Assembly (NCBI GenBank): GCA_024278345.1
Contig: JAJRTK010000442.1
Coordinates: forward strand, 1 to 12,173
Length of the DNA: 12,173 nt
Source of the DNA: a bacterium
GTDB lineage: Bacteria; CSSED10-310; JAJRTK01
Direction: 5' to 3'
Under the pieces are notes generated by a model, which was given only the letters and a program-made list of their open reading frames with translations, ran no database searches and was not told where the DNA came from. A program made the translations under genes and the position numbers. Shown here one piece after another: positions 1 through 12,173 of this stretch (its first letter is position 1; each line of letters starts with the position of its first letter).

Positions 1-1
1 C

Positions 2-48
2 GCTCCCTGGCGTGGGTCTGGGAGCGGCGCTCCCAGCGGAGGTCCGGA
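2..48. repeat. Left copy of the 47-bp terminal direct repeat
   Basis: Bases 2-48 are identical, in the same orientation, to bases 12127-12173, the last 47 bases of the window. The match fails at the next base to the left: base 1 is c, whereas 12126 is g. The repeat holds a complete stem-loop (arms 18-25 and 29-36, triloop GGC) plus the 3' arm of a preceding stem. It is either the overlap of a circular molecule or two copies of a dispersed element at which an assembly stopped. Confidence 0.9.
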
Positions 49-97
49 GGCGGAGCCTCCGCCGGGTTCCAGGGCTGGAAGCCCTGGGGCTGGACCC
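18..97. repeat. Modular hairpin array, left part (three tandem triloop stems)
   Basis: Three perfect short stems follow each other. The first is CTGGGAGC (18-25), loop GGC, GCTCCCAG (29-36). The second is CGGAGGC (45-51), loop GGA, GCCTCCG (55-61). The third is CCAGGGCT (69-76), loop GGA, AGCCCTGG (80-87). Each is preceded by a GGTC/GGGTT-like spacer, so the array looks built from degenerate modules of roughly 25 bases. CTGGACCC at 90-97 would close the whole array by pairing with GGGTCCAG at 12112-12119 if the ends were joined, or with the missing left part of this copy. The function is unknown; a dispersed intergenic palindromic (REP-like) element is the closest description. Confidence 0.75.
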
Positions 98-107
98 GAA
101 GTTCACT

Positions 108-182
108 GGGTGGCCGGTGCCGACCGCAGGGAGAGTCGGCTTCGCCGACCACCGATGACCAAGGCCGGCGGGACAAAGCAGG
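108..182 (+). repeat. Flank of the hairpin array: GGGTGGCCGGTGCC, triloop stem, ATGACCAAGGCC motif
   Basis: Bases 108-121 (GGGTGGCCGGTGCC) match 13 of 14 bases of the reverse complement of 12070-12083. A stem GTCGGC (135-140), loop TTC, GCCGAC (144-149) follows; GCCGAC at 119-124 could compete for the same arm. Bases 153-168 (CGATGACCAAGGCCGG) recur exactly at 5592-5607. GACAAAGCAGG (172-182) recurs with one base missing at 5613-5622. The block lies about 100 bp ahead of the kinase start. From 183 to 279 I see only the weak upstream context of that gene. Confidence 0.65.
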
Positions 183-4596: not shown

Positions 4597-5454
4597 ATGA
4601 ACCAAAAACTACCCGATCCGCCGGATCTGAGTCGAGTGCCATCTTTTCGCTTGGCCTTCGAAGACCTCGATTTCCTTAGGACTGATCGCCTTCGACCTGT
4701 CCGCTTTCAGCTCGAGCTCTTGAAGCCCACGGTGGTCTTGGACGAGCAAAAGGTCTACGCCACGGTCGTTCTTTTTGGAAGCGCCAGAATCTTGTCGCCT
4801 GAAGAGGCCCGGCGTCGCTTGGAAGAAGTCCGCCGCCAAGTGGAGGCCGATCCCGGGAGTGAAGTCGCTCGAAGGGCAGTCCAGCAAGCGGAACGGGCTG
4901 TCCGCACCAGCGCCTATTATGAGATTTCACGCGAATTCGCGAAAATCGTCAGCAGCCGCGCCAAAGAAGAGATGGGGTCCGAGCTTGTCATCGTCACTGG
5001 CGGCGGCCCGGGAATTATGGAGGCCGGGAATCGGGGAGCGGCGGAAGCTGGCGGGCGAAGCATCGGCCTGAGCATCTTGCTGCCAAGGGAAAACGGACCC
5101 AACCCTTATGTCAGCCCCGATCTTTGCTTCCAGTTCCACTATTTTGCCATCCGGAAGATGCACTTTCTGATGCGGGCTTTGGCCATGGTCGTCTTTCCCG
5201 GTGGTTTCGGGACGATGGACGAAATGTTCGAGCTGTTGACGCTGAGCCAAACAGGAAGAGCCGACCGGATTCCCATCGTTCTTTGCGGTACCGAGTTTTG
5301 GAGCCGTGCCATCAATTTCCAGTTCCTGGTGGATGAAGGAGTCGTTTCGGCCAAGGATCTCGATCTGTTTGTTTATGCCGACACCGCCGAGGAAATTTGG
5401 GCGCGGATTTGCGAGTTCCCCGGTCCTACACAGCCGGCGATCCGGGCGACGTAG
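4597..5454 (+). CDS. LOG-family protein (nucleotide 5'-monophosphate phosphoribohydrolase-like)
   Basis: The LOG family splits adenosine or other nucleoside monophosphates, or cytokinin ribotides in plants and some bacteria, into base and ribose 5-phosphate in the cytoplasm. The 285-residue product shows the family signatures: VVLFGSAR (57-64), TGGGPGIMEAGNRGA (134-148), RKMHF (186-190) and PGGFGTMDE (201-209), whose Gly-rich loop and Glu209 form the active site. It is longer than compact LOG proteins of about 180-200 residues because of a 50-residue N-terminal extension and a charged helical insert (about 66-115). It resembles the larger bacterial variants often misnamed lysine decarboxylase. 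The ATG at 4597 has GGAGAG at 4582-4587, 9 bases away; an in-frame TTG at 4561 lacks such a site. The exact substrate is not readable from sequence. Confidence 0.85.
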   Translation: MNQKLPDPPDLSRVPSFRLAFEDLDFLRTDRLRPVRFQLELLKPTVVLDEQKVYATVVLFGSARILSPEEARRRLEEVRRQVEADPGSEVARRAVQQAERAVRTSAYYEISREFAKIVSSRAKEEMGSELVIVTGGGPGIMEAGNRGAAEAGGRSIGLSILLPRENGPNPYVSPDLCFQFHYFAIRKMHFLMRALAMVVFPGGFGTMDEMFELLTLSQTGRADRIPIVLCGTEFWSRAINFQFLVDEGVVSAKDLDLFVYADTAEEIWARICEFPGPTQPAIRAT

Positions 5455-5464
5455 GCACGGGTCA

Positions 5465-5585
5465 CGAACCGTTTCGCCCCGGTGGGAGGAGACAAGAAAA
5501 AGACCTCCCATCGGGCCGCGGCGACCCTGTTTCCAGCCAGGGTGCCAGGGCCGGAGGCCCCGCTACCGCCTCAGAAACGGGCTCG
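5465..5585 (+). repeat. Second multi-hairpin element, closed by an outer stem
   Basis: CCGTTTC (5469-5475) and GAAACGG (5574-5580) are perfect complements, flanked by CGA and TCG that could extend the stem with a bulge. Inside lie three stems: GGTGGGAGG (5481-5489) with CCTCCCATC (5504-5512, one G-U), ACCCTG (5524-5529) with CAGGGT (5538-5543), and GGGCC (5548-5552), loop GGA, GGCCC (5556-5560). The result is a cloverleaf-like drawing with the same GGA triloop as the array at 18-97. It could be an RNA leader of the methyltransferase operon, a read-through-limiting 3' structure of the LOG gene, or a DNA repeat. There is no U tract. Confidence 0.5.
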
Positions 5586-5591
5586 ACAAAA

Positions 5592-5622
5592 CGATGACCA
5601 AGGCCGGAAAATGACAAGCAGG
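5592..5622 (+). repeat. Second copy of the ATGACCAAGGCC motif, overlapping the methyltransferase start
   Basis: CGATGACCAAGGCCGG (5592-5607) is identical to 153-168, and GACAAGCAGG (5613-5622) corresponds to 172-182 with one base fewer. The conserved block therefore spans the proposed methyltransferase start codon. Its AAGG (5600-5603), 7 bases from the ATG, is the only ribosome-binding-like sequence for that gene. Confidence 0.7.
5594..5614 (+). CDS. Possible six-codon leader peptide MTKAGK
   Basis: An ATG inside the repeated motif opens a six-codon frame (MTKAGK) whose TGA at 5612-5614 overlaps the methyltransferase ATG at 5611 as ATGA. The spacing is typical of translational coupling, so ribosomes finishing the mini-frame could restart on the methyltransferase. 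No convincing ribosome-binding site precedes it. At the left copy the same motif would start MTKAGG and run on to 343, so the peptide itself is not conserved. This is a weak proposal. Confidence 0.2.
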   Translation: MTKAGK

Positions 5623-10023: not shown

Positions 10024-11820
10024 TCACCTCCGTTGCGCGCCAATCGCCCTCTCCCGCCGGCTGAAACTCGATCTTCCCCCGGTTGCCCAGCGTCTCCCCA
10101 ATGCCAGCAGCAGAAGCGCCAGGACCAGAATCGCCGTCCGAGGCGTCGTCGCTAACGGCGCCGAAGAGAGATCCAGATAATAATCCTGAGTCCCCGTGCA
10201 TCCAGATCCCGCTGATACCTCAAAGACCCAGGGCCCCGGGTCAGGATCCAGGATGCGGATCTGCCGCAAGGTTGGCGCCAGACGGAGCAGTCCGAACTCC
10301 TCTCCGCTGGGAGTCCAGATCCGGATGTCGGTGACACAGTTCGGATCAGCGGGGCCGTACAAGTAATAGTTGATCCGGAGCTCGTCGTCCGGGGCATCAA
10401 CCTGATGCGTACTGATTTCCGGGTTGCCGGGAACAACGGTTCTTGGAGTGGCCGTTGCCGTGGGAGTCGGGCTGGACGTCGGAGTCAGAGTCGCCGCCGG
10501 AGTCACCGTCGAAGTCGGCGTTGGCGTGGACGTGGGAGTCGGCGTTGGCGGCGTTGTCAGGTCGAAATCGGCAACCGCGGCCCAGAGCGTCCCGCCGATG
10601 GGATCGTGGAACACCAGATGGATCTTCTGATCGACGGCGGCAACCACCGGATGCTCGCCACCAGCCGGACCCGCGTCAGAGGGAAGACCGAGGGGGCCTG
10701 GGAATTCCGTGAGCAACTCGTCTCGGAAGGAATAGGTGAGCCGCGGAATGCCGTTGCCATCTTCCCGGTCCCAGACAACCATGATTCTGGAAGGCGATGC
10801 TGCCACGATTTCCGCGATCCCCGGGACACTGTCAAAGCTGCTATCCAGAATCTGCGATTGCAGAACGGTTTGAGTCGAAGGCTGGTATCGCGTGTAGAGC
10901 AAATGCCTGGATCCATCCGTGGTGTCTGTACTGACCGTGGCAAACTGGATCTCATCATCGTCGAGCACGGCCAGGCGGCTCGCCCCCACGCTCCCCACGA
11001 TCCCCGTAAGCGGAAGGGTTGTCACAACCCAGTTCTGCCCGTCGAAGCGGCCGTGGAAGCTCTTGTGGAACCGTCCCACTTCGTGGAGCATTGTCGGCCC
11101 GAGAGCCGTATCGAGGTTTTTCTGAAGACTGTCCGTTCCCTCGGGAGCCAGGCGCGTCGTTTCCAGGATGGTGGCGTTCACCAAGCTGATCCGCAGATCG
11201 TACGTGCCATCTTGCCAAACCGCGGGCTCGAAAGCCGGCTCTCCGGGTTTCGGCAGTCCTGCCGAGCCTTCAAGGTCGCGCACCGCCCCTCCAATCAGAA
11301 GGGCAAAGAGATGGAGTCCGCCTCCGGCGATCCAGTACCGGACTGAGAGATCTTCAATGTCGGCCGGCAAAATCACGGTCTTGACGCCACCGGTTATGTT
11401 GCCGCCAATGTCCACGTGCCGCAAGAAAGCCAGAGAAGTTGGCGGCTTGCCCGCCCAAGCGATCCAGGCTCCGCCCAGGGCATCGAGAGTTAGCCGGGGC
11501 TGGTTCTTGTCCAGTTGTCCCCCGTTGGCCGGCGTGTTCGGATCACTGATCTTCTGCTCCACGCCCCACGCCAATGTGTCGTAGTGGCGGTAATAGATCT
11601 CCGAGCCACGACGGTAGACAAGATGCCCTCGCCCTCCGGGAGTCATCTCCAAATCAAGGTTGCCGCCACCTGAATCAAGAGCGGAAAAAGATTCGAAGTC
11701 CAGAGCCCGGACCGGCGGGGGTGCCATCACGAGCAAGCCCACCAACAGGGTTGCGCACCCGAAGAGCCTGTTCCACGCCGTTCTGAATTCTTCCGAGCCC
11801 CCGCGGATCCAGTTGTTCAT
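10024..11820 (-). CDS. Secreted beta-propeller-like protein with Thr/Pro linker and C-terminal anchor
   Basis: The function is not recognised. The 598-residue precursor has an N-terminal signal sequence (residues 1-39, hydrophobic 20-33, likely cleavage after VRA). Residues 40-420 contain recurring short motifs such as GRGHLVYRRGSEIYYRHYD, LTLDALGGAWIAWAG, SRIMVVWDREDGNG and KIHLVFHDPIGGTLWAA, the pattern of sialidase-like or BNR-type propeller blades. A Thr/Pro-rich linker occupies 421-463. Residues 466-553 form a small domain with two cysteines (495, 541). A single hydrophobic segment (TAILVLALLLLAL, 562-574) and a basic tail of 24 residues end the protein, like a sorting or anchoring signal, but I see no invariant motif of a named CTERM class. 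AAGGAGG (11827-11833) sits 6 bases from the ATG. A cell-surface or periplasmic binding role is inference. Confidence 0.72.
   Translation of the reverse strand: MNNWIRGGSEEFRTAWNRLFGCATLLVGLLVMAPPPVRALDFESFSALDSGGGNLDLEMTPGGRGHLVYRRGSEIYYRHYDTLAWGVEQKISDPNTPANGGQLDKNQPRLTLDALGGAWIAWAGKPPTSLAFLRHVDIGGNITGGVKTVILPADIEDLSVRYWIAGGGLHLFALLIGGAVRDLEGSAGLPKPGEPAFEPAVWQDGTYDLRISLVNATILETTRLAPEGTDSLQKNLDTALGPTMLHEVGRFHKSFHGRFDGQNWVVTTLPLTGIVGSVGASRLAVLDDDEIQFATVSTDTTDGSRHLLYTRYQPSTQTVLQSQILDSSFDSVPGIAEIVAASPSRIMVVWDREDGNGIPRLTYSFRDELLTEFPGPLGLPSDAGPAGGEHPVVAAVDQKIHLVFHDPIGGTLWAAVADFDLTTPPTPTPTSTPTPTSTVTPAATLTPTSSPTPTATATPRTVVPGNPEISTHQVDAPDDELRINYYLYGPADPNCVTDIRIWTPSGEEFGLLRLAPTLRQIRILDPDPGPWVFEVSAGSGCTGTQDYYLDLSSAPLATTPRTAILVLALLLLALGRRWATGGRSSFSRRERAIGAQRR
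10432..10560 (-). repeat. In-frame repeats coding the Thr/Pro-rich linker
   Basis: The segment encodes residues 421-463, mostly alternating Thr and Pro with some Ser, Ala and Val. The DNA is made of degenerate short units in the style of gtcggcgttggcgtgg on the plus strand. Such tracts expand and contract by slippage, so the linker length is likely variable between strains. Its role would be to hold the propeller away from the C-terminal domain and membrane. Confidence 0.8.
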
Positions 11821-12057: not shown

Positions 12058-12083
12058 GGCCTCGGTCATGGTACCGGCCACCC
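12058..12083 (-). repeat. Inverted counterpart of the array flank (GGCCTCGGTCAT plus GGTACCGGCCACCC)
   Basis: Reading the minus strand, GGGTGGCCGGTACC (12083-12070) is followed at once by ATGACCGAGGCC (12069-12058). These match 108-121 at 13 of 14 and 155-166 at 11 of 12 bases. In the left copy the two blocks are separated by 33 bases holding an extra stem. The two flanks therefore point outward from the hairpin array in opposite directions. Confidence 0.6.
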
Positions 12084-12111
12084 GAAAAAAGCGCGCAGCG
12101 CACAAAGATGT

Positions 12112-12135
12112 GGGTCCAGGGAGCTGGCTCCCTGG
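12112..12135. repeat. First hairpin of the right-end array and outer closing arm
   Basis: CCAGGGAGC (12116-12124) and GCTCCCTGG (12127-12135) form a 9-bp palindrome with 2 bases between; 8 pairs with a CTGG loop is more realistic. GGGTCCAG (12112-12119) overlaps it and is the perfect complement of CTGGACCC at 90-97, the probable outer closing stem of a full element. Confidence 0.65.
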
Positions 12136-12173
12136 CGTGGGTCTGGGAGCGGCGCTCCCAGCGGAGGTCCGGA
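12127..12173. repeat. Right copy of the 47-bp terminal direct repeat
   Basis: Identical to bases 2-48 and running to the last base of the window. It includes the stem CTGGGAGC (12143-12150), loop GGC, GCTCCCAG (12154-12161), and ends inside the 5' arm of the next stem, which is seen complete at 45-61 in the left copy. Confidence 0.9.

Follow-up and report, generated by a model that had tools for sequence, protein, structure and literature searches.

A chain of short hairpins at the end of a bacterial contig: the probable interior of a ~201-bp MITE with exchangeable modules

Among described repeats, the closest in plan to the element reported here is QMITE2 of Coxiella burnetii, the two being likened by description rather than by a comparison of their sequences (PMC5896051, PMC10969869). 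QMITE2 is ~190 bp in length, carries 23-29-bp terminal inverted repeats and 7-9-bp direct repeats that differ from site to site, and occurs in dozens of copies, with truncated forms and a role as a target for another element (PMC5896051, PMC10969869). The closest system in modularity is the BOX element of streptococci, in which a hairpin module may be missing or present more than once, as is the case here (PMC3049150). Its boxA and boxC ends surround tandem copies of boxB, and in S. suis the same middle modules (boxB) are located between different end modules (PMC3049150). The Chunjie MITE of Geobacter uraniireducens and the Correia and ERIC elements are likewise non-coding, folded, transposable sequences of 100-235 bp, with copy numbers from tens to hundreds. 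The termini of Correia, ERIC, and RUP are TA, and these elements are not described as chains of triloop hairpins (PMC10969869, PMC2229807). A high AT content is usual in bacterial MITEs (PMC10969869). The REP/BIME sequences with RAYT are also high-copy palindromic units that are in part mosaics, as here, but they are tied to a Y1 transposase and are without terminal inverted repeats and 8-bp duplications (PMC2817692, PMC3733652).

The stretch of DNA under investigation (the window, 12,173 nucleotides) is contig C381 of the genome of an uncultured bacterium, G000, which comprises 6.06 Mb in 550 contigs. The original prediction, made from the letters alone, was of three consecutive perfect stems of 7-8 bp enclosing the loops GGC, GGA, and GGA between positions 18 and 97, and this was borne out. 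All three are read on the forward strand. Hairpin 2 (18-36) has 8 bp, with arms CTGGGAGC and GCTCCCAG and a GGC triloop, hairpin 3 (45-61) has 7 bp and reads CGGAGGC-GGA-GCCTCCG, and hairpin 4 (69-87) has 8 bp, with arms CCAGGGCT and AGCCCTGG around a GGA triloop. The spacers are CGTGGGT (11-17) in front of hairpin 2, CGGAGGTC (37-44), and CCGGGTT (62-68). The window contains five triloop stems of at least 7 bp, four of which belong to a repeat referred to as family A; dinucleotide shuffling of the window gave a mean of 1.2 such stems, and in none of 300 shuffles did three fall within 70 nt. The three stems at 18-97 are hairpins 2-4 of a family-A copy, the left part of which has been lost at the contig start.

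Complete copies of family A are ~201 bp in length, GC-rich (0.69 versus 0.575 in a genome sample), non-coding, and interspersed. They are delineated by 24-bp terminal inverted repeats, GGCCTYGGTCATSGTWYCGGCCAC, and 491 of 505 cells are paired between the two ends. After the first terminal repeat come a brief run rich in A, then hairpin 0, which is small (GCGC-GCA-GCGC or a variant of it), and the sequence ACAAAAAYGTGGGT. Hairpins 1-4, with the linkers CGTGGGT, CGGAGGTC, and CCGGGTT between them, lead into a variable segment and then into the second terminal repeat. The interior is thus built of units, each composed of a short linker ending in GGTC-like bases and a 7-8-bp hairpin with a loop of 3-4 nt. 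Compared with QMITE2, the element is present in higher copy number, has a GC content of 69%, and, instead of a GTAG REP, contains a chain of four to five short hairpins common to a second family; the folding energy reported for QMITE2 is -113 kcal/mol versus -127 kcal/mol here (PMC5896051, PMC10969869). Unlike BOX (PMC3049150), the element has middle modules whose arms differ from one another, and long, perfect inverted repeats flanked by duplications of 8-9 bp form its ends.

The first 120 bases of the window match at least 40 places in G000, itself included, and a first look yielded 329 candidates. Family-A ends number from 268 to ~310 in this genome, with 268 at two or fewer mismatches versus 0 for the reversed pattern. 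An arbitrary 450-kb sample contained 30 matches, or ~67 per Mb with partial copies counted. The absence of further copies in the genome had been put forward as grounds for abandoning the original prediction, and yet the core occurs 274 times in G000 versus 0 in a reversed control. The idea that the stems are independent modules that scatter themselves did not hold, however, since they are fixed parts of one ~201-bp mobile element. In 289 other genomes the core motif is at chance level, and no copy of either the element or its core was found in plasmid, phage, and viral collections.

Three elements are contained within the window. Copy 1 (1-166, forward strand) is truncated on its 5' side by the contig start and is without its left terminal repeat, hairpin 0, and half of hairpin 1. 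It scores 102 bits with the covariance model R1, and its identity to the best-matching of the other copies in the genome is 97-99% across 115-117 bp. Its right terminal repeat (109-166, forward strand) runs from GGTGGCCGG (109-117) to CCGATGACCAAGGCC (152-166), with GATGACCAAGGCC as its end at 166, and is interrupted by a hairpin module of ~34 nt (118-151). The TTC-triloop stem predicted at 135-149 is real (GTCGGC-TTC-GCCGAC, 6 bp) and lies in this module. The left repeat carries a related insert at the equivalent position in locus L055 and different inserts in L054 and L056. Adjoining copy 1, the segment at 167-222, GGCGGGACAAAGC ... TTATCCCGCTTTGCATGGATATCC, resembles, as judged by eye, a decayed terminus of the second family. 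Copy 2 (12058-12173, forward strand; 74 bits with R1) is truncated on its 3' side by the contig end and retains the left terminal repeat (12058-12081), hairpin 0 (12091-12101, GCGC-GCA-GCGC), hairpin 1 (12116-12135), and hairpin 2 (12143-12161). It is a different copy from copy 1 because the terminal-repeat subtypes differ, that of copy 2 being ATGGTACC.

The third element, on the reverse strand at about 5454-5605, is decayed: its family-A end at 5605 is intact, whereas the partner at ~5454 is degenerate. It gives a weak match to R1 (18.4 bits, E 0.007) and has no visible target-site duplication around it. Inside it lies the GGA-triloop stem that had been noted at 5548-5560, which is real but of just 5 bp (GGGCC-GGA-GGCCC), and which resembles a hairpin-4 variant of the same sequence. 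A further weak match to the covariance model at 10420-10528 is spurious and arises from 18-bp coding tandem repeats. These repeats (10443-10560) encode a proline/threonine-rich linker (PTPTSTPTPT) in a large open reading frame on the reverse strand (10024-11820).

Overlooked in the original prediction was a 47-bp direct repeat joining the contig ends, with positions 2-48 identical, letter for letter, to positions 12127-12173. A circular replicon was considered on the basis of this identity and rejected, given that the two end copies differ in terminal subtype and that copies of the repeat are interspersed. Both contig ends fall within copies of family A, as do 10 of 68 contig ends in an arbitrary sample of contigs. 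The assembly breaks inside the repeat at both ends of this contig, and the interspersed repeat thus accounts for where it breaks.

A second MITE, family B, has different termini and a core in common with family A. Its ends, GGGTATCCACGYAAGGCGGGACA, are unlike those of family A and occur 464 times in G000 versus 0 in a control, such that family B is the more numerous of the two, with the same core placed between quite different terminal repeats; none was found in seven other genomes of the phylum. The interior opens with hairpin 0, the linker, and hairpin 1 as in family A, and the hairpins 2 and 3 that follow, in unchanged order, are particular to family B. Hairpin 3 reads C-GGAGGC-GGA-GCCTCC-G in family A and C-GGGGAC-GGA-GTCCCC-G in family B, with two pairs differing and the pairing kept. 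Hairpin 1 is sometimes swapped for a longer CCCGTTGC...GCAACGGG hairpin, and hairpin 3 of family B for GCATGCGGGCC...GGCCCGCATGC. Modules are also lost, as at L082, which is without hairpin 1, and at L030, where hairpin 4 is shortened by 9 nt. Each hairpin behaves as a module that can be gained, lost, or exchanged. Families A and B are new, the MITE kind is already known, and the interior of this MITE is unusually modular.

Movement of the elements, past or present, is evident from their flanks. Target-site duplications of 8-9 bp surround the complete family-A copies of G000, exact in 13 of 22 and with one mismatch in another 3, versus 0 of 415 in a shifted-flank control. Those of family B are 8 bp in length and exact in five of six complete copies (0 of 102 in the corresponding control). 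Five near-full copies (L082, L083, L086, L088, and L094) are without a duplication, perhaps as a result of assembly joins or recombination. The copy at C5:335-535 splits a match to PF01610 (ISL3 transposase) at model position 161, with the match present to either side, and nine ISL3-gene bases, GTTCAAGCG, are doubled around the copy. There are also nested copies, as at L101, which lies inside another repeat. The duplications, the split ISL3 gene, and the copies inside other repeats are characteristic of a MITE moved by a DDE transposase. In the same region (L014:1-1000, contig C5), an ISL3-type element lies inside a family core with its end adjoining AAAAATGTGGGTCCAG, and its gene is itself interrupted by a family-A copy, so that the nesting runs in both directions.

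A transposase with matching terminal repeats was not found in G000, which is 88% complete and broken at repeats, in a search that covered IS1595, ISL3, IS256, IS1, and DDE_Tnp_1. IS1595 was rejected as the autonomous partner on account of its ends, which read GGCTCT.... ISL3 was rejected as well, since its 3' end, read on the opposite strand, is GGCTCTTCGCCAT, and it sits inside a family core. IS256 is absent from the genome, and no family-A or family-B ends surround a transposase at the IS1 and DDE_Tnp_1 (IS4/IS5-type) loci. The IS1595-type transposase observed at L090:1200-2150 and L091 (contigs C322 and C295), with the GGCTCT... ends, is frame-broken and contains a further hairpin repeat (...CGCGCC-N3-GGCGCG...GGAGCGGAACGCAAC), with matches at many other loci in G000. 

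Folding of the full element is far stronger than that of shuffled sequences (z of -7.3 as RNA and -7.4 as DNA). In 16 diverse family-A interiors, 98.2% of cells are paired, versus 34-57% with slid partners. Pairwise diversity is 0.236 in the loops versus 0.054 in the stems; the difference between stems and linkers is weak (p 0.28). Recent transposition has left most copies nearly identical. Within family A, double changes were observed at three of 31 interior pairs, with five of the seven such cells contributed by one subfamily, and this variation is too small for covariation to establish strict conservation of the arms. In family B, the loop-closing pairs are C-G, T-A, and mismatched intermediates, and the last two pairs are AC/GT, AT/AT, and CC/GG, with CC/GT and AA/AT as mismatched intermediates. 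Compensatory changes are clear between the families and few inside family A. The proposal that different arm sequences share one geometry applies across the families, as in hairpin 3. Hairpins 1 and 2 both contain the arm GGGAGC; their arms are thus not independent, and RNAalifold pairs the two hairpins with each other. A GNA triloop as a fixed signature was discarded since the loops vary, those of hairpins 0 and 3 also including GCA, GAA, GTA, GCG, AAC, AGA, and GGC.

Structure outlasts sequence in these elements, but the suggestion of selection on structure is supported only in part. Recent amplification, the arm common to hairpins 1 and 2, and the swapping of modules account for much of the pattern, and with the correction of palindromes as a further candidate no firm claim of selection is made. 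Such correction, by template switching at quasi-palindromes during replication, would keep the stems perfect and could produce this pattern in the absence of selection, with which it competes while being compatible with a MITE; we regard it as a serious possibility, though less likely than not. The minimal 3-nt loops, the perfect arms, and the gain and loss of whole hairpins (L082 and L030) are in keeping with it, as are the uncompensated changes present in recent copies, and the wobble and mismatch intermediates fit correction and selection alike. Multiplied transcription terminators built of hairpin clusters, by comparison, appear decidedly unlikely as the explanation of the repeat. Such clusters can terminate without a strong U-tail (PMC8355165), and the element folds on either strand, but 17 of 19 near-complete copies are not followed by a T-run (the exceptions being L085, in an A/T run, and L094, with TTTT). 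Furthermore, according to crude gene calls, five of the 14 intergenic copies with scorable neighbors lie between converging genes, the others being mixed. Given that most copies have no downstream T-run, the element is probably not a classical intrinsic terminator, and any termination may be a by-product and not what drives its spread.

A family of structured RNA genes repeated by chance, such as a decoy RNA that binds protein and has GGA loops, would explain the very stable fold, the GGA in several loops, and the conserved single-stranded ACAAAAAYGTGGGT. It is nonetheless most improbable, for the loops are not fixed as GGA, and the termini and duplications mark a transposon. Rfam gave no match for the window at gathering, nor for two full copies at E<=1. 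Scarcely probable at all is a REP/BIME-like array spread by RAYT, a Y1 HUH tyrosine transposase for which single-stranded hairpins would be the substrate. The short hairpins, the high copy number, and one Y1_Tnp-like frame in the genome are consistent with such an array, but that frame is the sole Y1 match and falls below the family cut-off (21.5 versus 23 bits), leaving none above it in G000, and no family-A terminal repeat lies near it. The unit is ~200 bp rather than 20-40, with long terminal inverted repeats and 8-9-bp duplications, and in place of a GTAG or CGTC tag at the end of a 20-40-nt palindrome there is a 201-bp element with GGCC ends. Y1 transposition of the IS200/IS605 kind is not known to make such repeats or duplications. 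The Y1-type transposase-like frame observed at L009:1012-1737 (contig C390) has an internal duplicated stretch, GGCGGGTTCGGAACCCGCCCCTACTCAACCTGACACCACGGACCGGGC.

The hairpin chain is very probably, then, the interior of a ~201-bp MITE, with families A and B forming one MITE system. The defining features that were tested are all present, namely a short, non-coding, multicopy sequence, terminal inverted repeats, and a duplication of fixed length. With regard to the usual but non-defining traits, the element is not AT-rich (GC 0.69), and an autonomous partner was not found. The terminal repeats are probably bound by a transposase, putatively of the DDE type, that is provided in trans, and insertion at a staggered cut would yield the 8-9-bp target-site duplication. 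Folding of the interior in RNA or in single-stranded DNA might blunt the effect of an insertion on transcription and stop read-through. The folded interior could be kept since the insert is thereby harmless, or because it is useful to the element.

Related sequences were observed outside of G000. In G003, which belongs to another family of the same phylum, family-A-like ends surround different folded interiors, with one exact duplication, CGAGAAAAC. Terminal-repeat pairs 1.8 and 2.2 kb apart in that genome were rejected as an autonomous element as they fall in ordinary genes. At L144:3066-3614, also in G003, a phosphatase-like open reading frame seems to take its final codons from a family-A-like end (RGRNDERGRGDRQATR), and thus a MITE end appears to have been fused into a gene. 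A covariance model of the chain matched four places in G030, from another phylum, with single weaker matches in G055 and G003. The G030 loci are intergenic arrays of two to four hairpins, such as GCGGGGTC with AAGGGGC-GGA-GCCCCTG (L179:1450-1600 and L183:1500-1615), and at L184, L185, L179, and L183 the hairpins are joined by CGGGGTC linkers, as in GCGGGGTC followed by three GGA-loop hairpins. The linkers there follow the grammar of the chain in G000. A 400-kb sample contains three arrays with the CGGGGT linker, of the recurring kind CCGGGGGAAATCATTTCCCCCGG-CGGGGT-CCAGGGGCGGAGCCCCTGG. Hairpin pairs overall are close to expectation in G030 (14 versus 9 in shuffled sequence), and it is the repeated sequence rather than the count that stands out. 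In viral contigs, two scans with a generic pattern of this grammar gave three contigs and a third scan gave 0, as did a reversed-linker control; these counts are uninformative. The likeness in G030 could be convergence in GC-rich DNA. It is rather unlikely, though conceivable, that the string of GGTC-type linkers and GGA-type triloop hairpins is a free-standing functional module in several phyla, captured here by at least two unrelated MITE families.

If the hairpin/linker grammar were common across phyla, it would suggest a general and as yet unnamed structured element. G000, in which the terminal repeats of two MITE families together exceed 700, is well suited to studying how folded cargo is gained and exchanged by non-autonomous elements. 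The presence of one hairpin core between unrelated ends allows the effect of the core on spread to be separated from that of the termini.
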